NCBI GenBank assembly: GCA_947303585.1
Contig: CAMYYT010000005.1
Location: 1 to 49,953 of the forward strand
Length of the DNA stretch: 49,953 bases
Direction: 5' to 3'
Source of the DNA: an uncultured Pseudomonadota bacterium
Lineage (GTDB): Bacteria > Pseudomonadota > Alphaproteobacteria > Rs-D84
Part shown: positions 26,592 to 29,151 of the stretch, one piece after another
How the letters are laid out: each line of letters opens with the position of its first letter
Position numbering within the stretch: position 1 is the stretch's first letter
Program-made: the position numbers and the translations under genes
The notes under the pieces: generated by a model
What the model was told of the DNA's origin: nothing
Databases searched by the model: none
The model's input: the letters and a program-made list of their open reading frames with translations, nothing else

Positions 26592-26918
26592 ATGAAAAAC
26601 AAAGCTGTTAAAATAGGTATCATCGCATCGCTTTTGCCACATTTGTTTTGTTGTGTTTTACCAATAGTTTTATCTTTGATTGGGCTTTTTGCCCCAGAAA
26701 TTTCACATACATCTTTTATCCCAGAATGGATAGAACCTTGGTTGTTCGTGTTTTCAGCTTTGATGTTGGGATTATCTTGGGTTTTAACTTTCCAGGATTG
26801 TCCATGTGCAGAATGCGGGGCAGAAAAGTCTCATAAAAAGCAAAAAATAATATTGGCAATTATCACTATGATATTTATCGTTAGTGTTATTTTACATCTA
26901 GTTGCAGAATGTCATTAA
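26592..26918 (+). CDS. Small membrane protein with CC and CPCAEC motifs, possibly metal-related
   Basis: MKNKAVKIGIIASLLPHLFCCVLPIVLSLIGLF...FQDCPCAECGAEKSHKK...; three hydrophobic segments; start taken at 26592. Confidence 0.65.
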   Translation: MKNKAVKIGIIASLLPHLFCCVLPIVLSLIGLFAPEISHTSFIPEWIEPWLFVFSALMLGLSWVLTFQDCPCAECGAEKSHKKQKIILAIITMIFIVSVILHLVAECH

Positions 26919-27846: not shown

Positions 27847-28335
27847 ATGAAAACATCAAAGATTATTTTTGGTTTGATTTGCGGGGCATTTATTGGAACA
27901 GCGAACGCCGCAGACATTTCAATTTTCTATGCGCCAACATGTCCACATTGTCATCATGCGCGTGAATTTATCAGTTCTACATTGATATATGAATATGATA
28001 ACTTAAATGTGACCGAAGTAAATGTCACAAAAAACGAAAACAAACAGGCTTTCGTTGATGCACTTTTTAAATGCGGATATCAAAGGGGTGGCGTGCCAGT
28101 AATTGTAATTGGTGATGTCAATAAAAAAGATGGATTTAAGTGTTTTCAAGGATATGCAGATTCGATGCAATCTCAATTACGCGAAGCTGTCGAAATTGAT
28201 TTGACAGTTGAACAGAAAAATGCTGCTGCTGCAAACAAAGCAGAAATGACCAAAGACAAAGACGCATTTGTTGCTGCGCATGCGGATAGAAAAGGTGCAA
28301 TCAAAGAAATTGAACCTCAAAAAAAAAATAACTAG
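27847..28335 (+). CDS. Periplasmic thioredoxin/glutaredoxin-fold protein (CPHC)
   Basis: Signal peptide MKTSKIIFGLICGAFIGTANAA; ISIFYAPTCPHCHHAREF; GGVPVIVIGD cis-Pro region; stop lies just after an A10 run. Confidence 0.75.
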   Translation: MKTSKIIFGLICGAFIGTANAADISIFYAPTCPHCHHAREFISSTLIYEYDNLNVTEVNVTKNENKQAFVDALFKCGYQRGGVPVIVIGDVNKKDGFKCFQGYADSMQSQLREAVEIDLTVEQKNAAAANKAEMTKDKDAFVAAHADRKGAIKEIEPQKKNN

Positions 28336-28429
28336 TTTAAACGATACAACAACAAACATAGTGTTGATAGGTTTATTAATACTTTTACTAGCAGGTTTTG
28401 TTTTTGTTGTATTTAAGAAAAGAAAATAA
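28319..28429 (+). other. Alternate-frame extension (TM helix plus basic tail) beyond the A10 tract
   Basis: Frame +1 after A10 (28319-28328): KKITSLNDTTTNIVLIGLLILLLAGFVFVVFKKRK-stop at 28427-28429. Confidence 0.6.
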
Positions 28430-28440
28430 GGCATAACAAG

Positions 28441-29151
28441 ATGTTTGATTTAACTGTTTTAGATTATATTTATGTATTAGTTATTTTGGCATCTACTGTT
28501 TGGGGAACAATCCGTGGTGGTGTGTATGAAACCATCGCAACGATGTCATGGGTTGTCGCTGCTATCTCGGCACGATTTGCTTCACCATTTTTGGATGGTA
28601 TGTTGCAGAAATGGTTTAATCTGCCAGATTCAACGGTTGTGACTTTGGTTGTTTCGTATTTCATAGTGTTCTTTGTAATCTTGGTTATTGTTGGATTTAT
28701 AAACCAAAAGATTCGTGAACGTGTCCAGGATAGCTTCTTGTCTGTTGTAGATAAAACTTTGGGGGTTGTATTTGGTATAATCCGCAGTATTATCATAATG
28801 GGCTTTGTTTATTGGGGATTGCTTTGGTATTATTCAGATATGCCGCGTGGGCTGCCGGTTTGGATTGCTGATGCCAGAACCCGTCCAGTTATGCAATTGA
28901 CAGCGGTAAAAATGGATGATTGGTTCTTGTTTGGAAACAGTAAATTATTAAAGCGCGATCTCCAAGCAGACAGGGAACAGCATGCTAATTTAATAAACCC
29001 TGCTGTGGAAAGAAAACAAGTTTCTAAAAATCAGGATAAATCTGGTGAAGACAAAGAAACAGGATACAAGACAGGTGAACGTGCAGCGCTGGAAAATCAG
29101 TTGTTGCAAATAGAATCTGTTGCAAATGCAGTTCAAGGAAGGGAAAAATAA
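28441..29151 (+). CDS. CvpA family protein
   Basis: LDYIYVLVILASTVWGTIRGGVYETIATMSWVVAAISA...DKTLGVVFGIIRSIIIMG; four hydrophobic segments. Confidence 0.85.
   Translation: MFDLTVLDYIYVLVILASTVWGTIRGGVYETIATMSWVVAAISARFASPFLDGMLQKWFNLPDSTVVTLVVSYFIVFFVILVIVGFINQKIRERVQDSFLSVVDKTLGVVFGIIRSIIIMGFVYWGLLWYYSDMPRGLPVWIADARTRPVMQLTAVKMDDWFLFGNSKLLKRDLQADREQHANLINPAVERKQVSKNQDKSGEDKETGYKTGERAALENQLLQIESVANAVQGREK

Follow-up and report, generated by a model that had tools for sequence, protein, structure and literature searches.

A conserved run of nine or ten adenines as a putative slippage site between soluble and membrane-anchored forms of a periplasmic thioredoxin-fold protein

Introduction

A gene for an exported thioredoxin-fold protein in an uncultured alphaproteobacterium (Rs-D84 lineage) ends its annotated reading frame directly after ten consecutive adenines, and a second frame that would encode a membrane anchor opens at the same point. 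The question raised by this locus is whether one gene supplies both a soluble and an anchored protein, and by what means. The window analysed here is the whole stretch of 49,953 nucleotides (positions 1 to 49,953 of contig CAMYYT010000005.1, assembly GCA_947303585.1), from a genome of 0.85 Mb in 27 contigs; its close relatives are MAGs of alphaproteobacteria from rumen and gut.

Among bacterial chromosomal genes, conserved cases of programmed transcriptional slippage have seldom been documented apart from dnaX, insertion sequences and a few secretion genes. The candidate case described here spans approximately 130 same-genus loci and seven further genera, with codon choice, stop codons and off-frame selection in agreement. 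If true, a soluble and a membrane-anchored periplasmic enzyme would be obtained from a single gene in the absence of splicing, proteolysis or a second gene, and frame-by-frame annotation would miss the anchor in about one fifth of these thioredoxin-like genes.

The Locus and Its Reading Frames

The preliminary description of this DNA had placed a run of ten adenines (A10) at 28319-28328, with the annotated frame ending EPQKKNN-stop, and had proposed that nine adenines would open a frame for a clean transmembrane helix followed by a basic tail. The first statement holds exactly in the sequence, where the open reading frame from the ATG at 27847 ends ...EPQKKNN-TAG. The second is also borne out: nine adenines give a product of 193 amino acids with a KKRK end, and twelve give 194, both terminating in ...KKITSLNDTTTNIVLIGLLILLLAGFVFVVFKKRK-TAA (stop 28427-28429). 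With eight, ten or eleven adenines the products are 160-162 amino acids long, stop at the run and end in ...PQKK, ...PQKKNN or ...PQKKK, respectively. The A10 run is the only run of at least nine adenines on the forward strand of the window, and approximately 27 distinct sites of this length were counted on both strands of the 852 kb genome. The features of the locus are listed in Table 1.

Table 1. Sequence features at and around the adenine run, in coordinates of the window.
Feature	Position	Strand	Basis
N-terminal signal peptide MKTSKIIFGLICGAFIGTANA, cleavage site approximate	27847..27909	+	Read by eye from sequence; ANA(A) invariant in alignment
0-frame ORF, 162 aa, exported CPHC thioredoxin/glutaredoxin-fold protein, soluble form	27847..28335	+	Sequence, Pfam PF00462, AF2 model
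CPHC redox motif	27940..27951	+	Sequence; invariant in alignment
A10 slippage site (putative)	28319..28328	+	Sequence; A9/A10 at same position in 129/146 same-genus helix-bearing homologues, A12 in one more
TAA met straight after the run with one A added (A11)	28329..28331	+	Sequence; equivalent stop placement in genus
0-frame stop codon TAG of soluble form	28333..28335	+	Sequence
C-terminal extension in frame reached with A9 (or A12), including stop TAA 28427-28429	28329..28429	+	Sequence; purifying selection in off-frame clades
Transmembrane helix IVLIGLLILLLAGFVFVVF	28358..28414	+	Best 17-mer mean Kyte-Doolittle 3.26
Basic cytoplasmic tail KKRK	28415..28426	+	Sequence; Lys/Arg-rich tail after helix in relatives too
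CvpA (Colicin V production protein), next gene, start 11 nt past anchor-form stop	28441..29151	+	Pfam PF02674 3.6e-23

The window protein is of the thioredoxin/glutaredoxin fold with a CxxC redox motif. Pfam Glutaredoxin (PF00462) matches it at 8e-7 with 29.6 bits against a cut-off of 22.9, and a Foldseek search with its AF2 model (pLDDT 76) returned thioredoxins and PDI at a probability of up to 1.0, yet with a best E value of 0.01. The DSBA profile PF01323 is not among its Pfam matches, and a separate PF01323 gene is present in 19 of 21 order-level genomes (G000-G012, G035-G042); thus, the protein is not the DsbA of these organisms. When a DsbB partner was sought in the same 21 genomes, the PF02600 profile gave no match. 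Upstream of the gene (~26592-26918) lies a small membrane protein that carries the cysteine motifs CC and CPCAEC and weakly resembles MerT/MerC; it was rejected as a functional partner, given that it adjoins the gene in the window's near clade only.

Conservation of the Anchor and the Run

A homologue is present in 150 of the 156 same-genus genomes, from which 149 distinct loci, mostly from MAGs, were measured. The comparison of homologues with and without an anchor, put forward earlier as a check, comes out largely in favour of the anchor: a C-terminal helix is encoded in some frame in 146 of the 149 loci, and the three homologues without it belong to one clade, in which the run is absent as well. 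Just before the helix, 130 of the 146 anchor loci carry the run as A9 (70), A10 (59) or A12 (1), and neither A8 nor A11 occurs there in any of the 146. The thioredoxin and cvpA coding strands outside this site, 146,490 nt in all, contain no further run of at least nine adenines. That the frame encoding the helix is unlikely to stand behind the run by chance, as first suspected, is upheld by this recurrence at the same place, which goes well beyond what chance would give. In a complete relative of 1.0 Mb (G060), six sites of at least nine adenines were counted over both strands, one of which is the run described here.

The 16 anchor loci without the run indicate that dual forms are not essential in every species. 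Fifteen of them have the anchor in frame. The remaining one, L047, is the sole run-less locus with an off-frame anchor; its helix is intact and its run is interrupted (A7-G-A), which may mean that the soluble form alone is made, possibly after a recent loss of the switch.

Beyond the genus, the same family shows A9 or A10 before the helix in seven genera (g18, g19, g21, g24, g26, g29 and g30) and A8 in g25. Not every anchor in the family is preceded by a run, which is missing in several other genera (g20, g27, g28) and in some members of g30. Genus g6, from another family of the order, has a homologous thioredoxin domain with a CxxC motif, and an A10 run marks its junction with a polytopic membrane domain. 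This junction is in frame in G044 (L279, G044:C6) and off frame in G039 (L168, G039:C64), where the product of the genome frame stops shortly after the run. Drawn from the sequences of two genomes, this apparent second occurrence is a lead, not proof. The polytopic domain has an NPC motif in both G039 and G044, and a scan of the G039 protein against viral contigs found nothing. In G036, from a third family, a thioredoxin-membrane domain fusion is found without the run.

Selection on the Run and on Hidden Stops

The first adenine of the run falls on codon position 1, 2 or 3 depending on the species, which means that KKK, QKKN, EKKS or AKKN may be encoded while the run itself stays. All lysine codons lying fully within the runs are AAA (285/285), compared with 77% AAA and 23% AAG elsewhere in the same genes. 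Of 133 linkers with KK, 130 contain a run of at least nine adenines, whereas KK at other places is written AAAAAA in 52% of cases (p = 1e-32). A hidden stop follows the run-ending codon in 63% of cases, compared with 9.0% for N/S/T codons at other places of the gene (p = 3e-52). Both p values treat related loci as independent and codon context is partly controlled, such that the argument is carried by the effect size. Counted over the 130 loci and relative to the anchor frame, one added adenine meets a stop no more than 2 nt from the run in 82 and no more than 12 nt from it in 123; with one adenine fewer, the two counts are 35 and 47. Such placement would cut the soluble product cleanly at the run, in the layout of Thermus dnaX (PMC5009743).

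Another account of these observations would be a Lys-rich linker in an AT-rich genome, with the off-frame cases explained by gene decay or errors of assembly. The linker is indeed hydrophilic and in most cases contains KK, the loci have approximately 40% GC, and run-less loci are somewhat more GC-rich than loci with the run (0.445 vs. 0.405), so base composition helps to maintain the run. A plain linker is nevertheless rejected by the codon choice, by the single location of the run and by the control gene dnaX of the same genus, whose Lys-containing linker has A9 in 3 of 30 cases. Errors and decay are opposed by sister genomes that share off-frame states and by an anchor that stays under selection. 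Furthermore, the sequencing or assembly indel considered in the preliminary description is excluded by A9/A10 at the same site in more than 130 genomes, and by the run length that sister genomes have in common. Together with stop placement and the 12 of 12 close pairs that agree in run length and frame (below), run location and off-frame selection refute the linker and error account, which we regard as scarcely credible.

Frame States Among Relatives

In 102 loci the genome encodes the anchor in frame; 12 others, the window among them, need one adenine fewer, and 16 need one more. Most relatives thus have the anchor in frame, and in those slippage would remove the anchor and not add it. On a tree of the thioredoxin domain, the few columns of which make change counts rough, 10 changes between in-frame and off-frame were counted, with 22 over all states and 30 in run length. 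The frame states are clustered on this tree, as none of 200 shuffles gave a value as low.

In the off-frame clades, the anchor frame has pN/pS of 0.24, 0.33, 0.33, 0.50, 0.57 and 0.71 and no stops, whereas the other frames have 0.79 to 3.8 and stops in every clade; pooled over the anchor segment, pN/pS is 0.28 for off-frame pairs and 0.22 for in-frame pairs, these ratios being descriptive because pairs within a clade are not independent. Judged by these values, the off-frame anchor segment is under purifying selection, and the anchor is therefore very probably made and of use also in organisms whose chromosome has it off frame.

Phase variation, another of the explanations offered at the outset, would produce such frame changes by replication slippage that alters run length between cells, leaving any one clone either anchored or soluble. 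Homopolymers of 9-10 are typical phase-variable tracts, and both run length and frame do change on the tree, as counted above. Poly-A cases of phase variation have been listed as well (PMC3711429). Strain-level mixing would be expected from such a process; instead, run length and frame are equal in 12 of 12 locus pairs with at least 90% nucleotide identity. In addition, the lengths are confined to A9 and A10 except for the one A12, with the neighbouring lengths A8 and A11 unoccupied, and off-frame states span clades of clearly distinct species (L001/L031/L032; L005/L009/L012/L075/L086/L088). Phase variation is thus disfavoured, and we consider it quite improbable here.

Transcriptional Slippage as the Proposed Mechanism

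The explanation that we favour with good confidence, on comparative sequence data, is programmed transcriptional slippage at the A run, giving soluble and anchored forms in every cell. The A10 run would be the site at which RNA polymerase realigns within the exported thioredoxin-fold gene, yielding mixed mRNAs with one adenine fewer or more. From transcripts with 9 or 12 adenines, translation would give a protein whose C-terminus consists of a membrane anchor and a basic cytoplasmic tail, and from those with 8, 10 or 11 a soluble periplasmic protein ending at the run. With slippage taking place in the RNA, both proteins would accumulate in each cell, in proportions governed by slippage no matter which frame the chromosome encodes, and both would presumably be useful. 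We infer two roles: free periplasmic disulfide chemistry for the soluble form and, for the anchored form, chemistry of the same domain at the inner membrane, where a membrane partner or substrate may be close by.

Several observations point to RNA polymerase. The homopolymer of at least nine lies in coding sequence at one conserved position and is followed by a selected alternative frame, features by which transcriptional slippage is recognised. Orthologues that differ in the direction of the frameshift are a sign of transcriptional realignment (PMC3711429), and since 12 loci here need one adenine fewer and 16 need one more, transcriptional slippage fits best. Slippage by bacterial RNA polymerase has been reported at lengths of 9-10 adenines (PMC1088944, PMC5009743). 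Counting against this explanation, the E. coli enzyme is less prone to slippage on runs of A than on runs of T (PMC6260861).

Programmed ribosomal frameshifting or sliding on A_AAA_AAA would instead generate the second form from a homogeneous mRNA. An in-frame A_AAA_AAA heptamer lies within every run of at least nine adenines, and a -1 shift in the in-frame loci would lead to a stop-proximal soluble product, as in E. coli dnaX. However, the direction of ribosomal frameshifting is conserved (PMC3711429), whereas the window and 11 other loci need one nucleotide fewer and 16 need one more. A7 or A6G would be enough for the ribosome, yet it is A9/A10 that is conserved, a length that exceeds the ribosomal slippery heptamer and falls short of that for ribosome sliding; marked sliding in E. 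coli needed A11, and little product was made at A9/A10 (PMC4363877). No clear downstream structure was found (mean fold z -0.35 to -0.71), and a Shine-Dalgarno-like sequence lies upstream in 14 of 130 loci only. We therefore hold a ribosomal origin of the second form to be highly unlikely.

The position of cvpA bears on what slippage by RNA polymerase might serve. Its start follows the anchor stop in 146 of 146 anchor loci at a median distance of 18 nt, and the soluble stop lies approximately 100 nt upstream. The switch might thus mainly tune cvpA, in that only anchor-frame translation reaches the cvpA start and would couple its translation, which is compatible with slippage; a parallel is found in Shigella, where spa13 slippage affects spa32 expression (PMC5009743). 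However, the extension encodes a hydrophobic helix and a basic tail that are conserved, and it is selected at the protein level; coupling alone would require none of this. Translational coupling to cvpA is possible as a further effect and, as the main role of the switch, seems doubtful.

The proposal that the A run switches the protein between soluble and anchored forms is, therefore, strongly supported by the comparative data, with transcriptional slippage as the best fit among the explanations first listed, phase variation disfavoured and an assembly indel excluded. A broader reading, which seems to us finely balanced, is that the switch is ancient and indifferent to frame, with RNA polymerase slippage governing the membrane attachment of periplasmic thioredoxin-fold proteins throughout a whole order of reduced-genome gut alphaproteobacteria. 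Selection would then keep the A9/A10 tract and not the frame, so that the chromosome may encode either form, and the junction in genus g6 would be a further instance. The natural variants, which comprise both directions, three phases and losses, make the rules of slippage testable in these organisms.

Other Adenine Runs in These Genomes

Inspection of 20 regions around further A9 sites placed two sites of the window's genome deep within long sense ORFs, of which one is dnaX and the other unknown. In dnaX (L233 / L248, G000:C1, ~68841-68849, minus strand), the sequence A9-CTGA stands at codon 383, and one added adenine leads to a stop 1 nt past the run, as in the tau/gamma arrangement of Thermus. 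With A9 in only 3 of the 30 same-genus dnaX genes examined, dnaX was rejected as a second slippage gene conserved in the genus. L242 (G000:C13:2728-2736) carries A9 near codon 86 of an open frame of 486 codons, which encodes a hydrophobic helix at its N-terminus, and is a candidate slippage gene. Longer runs were also seen, namely an uninterrupted 19-A run at G000:C9:32144-32162 and a 15-A run at G028:C1 ~147356-147370.

Comparison With Known Systems

Programmed transcriptional slippage is known; the gene family, the purpose and the breadth of the present case are those for which no precedent was found. A search of the open-access literature found no earlier report of slippage in this thioredoxin-like gene family, nor of a bacterial slippage switch between soluble and anchored forms. 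The dnaX gene of Thermus thermophilus (tau/gamma) has a 9 A/T run mid-gene, nearby stops in the other frames, and long and short products (PMC5009743), a layout nearly the same as that of the in-frame loci of the thioredoxin-like gene. In contrast, the short form of the Thermus protein loses a DNA polymerase domain and not a membrane anchor, and the run of the thioredoxin-like gene may lie in or out of frame.

The tssM genes of Citrobacter rodentium and Yersinia pseudotuberculosis (A11) also have poly-A just before a stop, where slippage extends the product by a C-terminal part; the two forms are both important, as is their ratio, and slippage lengthens the product in one species and shortens it in the other (PMC4256274). 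However, this occurs in two species only and is not conserved in the family, and what is gained or lost is a periplasmic domain, whereas the site in the thioredoxin-like gene is kept in well over 100 species and is predicted to decide membrane attachment. In Shigella mxiE, mxiA, spa13 and spa33 and in the transposases of insertion sequences, RNA polymerase slips on A or T runs at sites that are often conserved, and IS630-type families use both directions (PMC3711429, PMC5009743, PMC1088944). Unlike the site proposed here, none of these is known to toggle the C-terminal membrane anchor of an exported enzyme.

In the AT-rich reduced genomes of Buchnera and Blochmannia, frameshifts in A runs are reportedly tolerated through polymerase infidelity (Wernegreen 2010, among the references of PMC6260861). 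Poly-A rescued genes of both genera are also mentioned elsewhere (PMC5009743). Slippage there repairs a broken gene, whereas codon choice and stop placement in the thioredoxin-like gene indicate selection for two products. The functionally closest analogue is the editing of the Ebola virus glycoprotein, in which polymerase slippage on an A run leads to soluble and transmembrane glycoproteins (PMC5009743), although in that case the enzyme is a viral RNA-dependent polymerase and the protein is unrelated.
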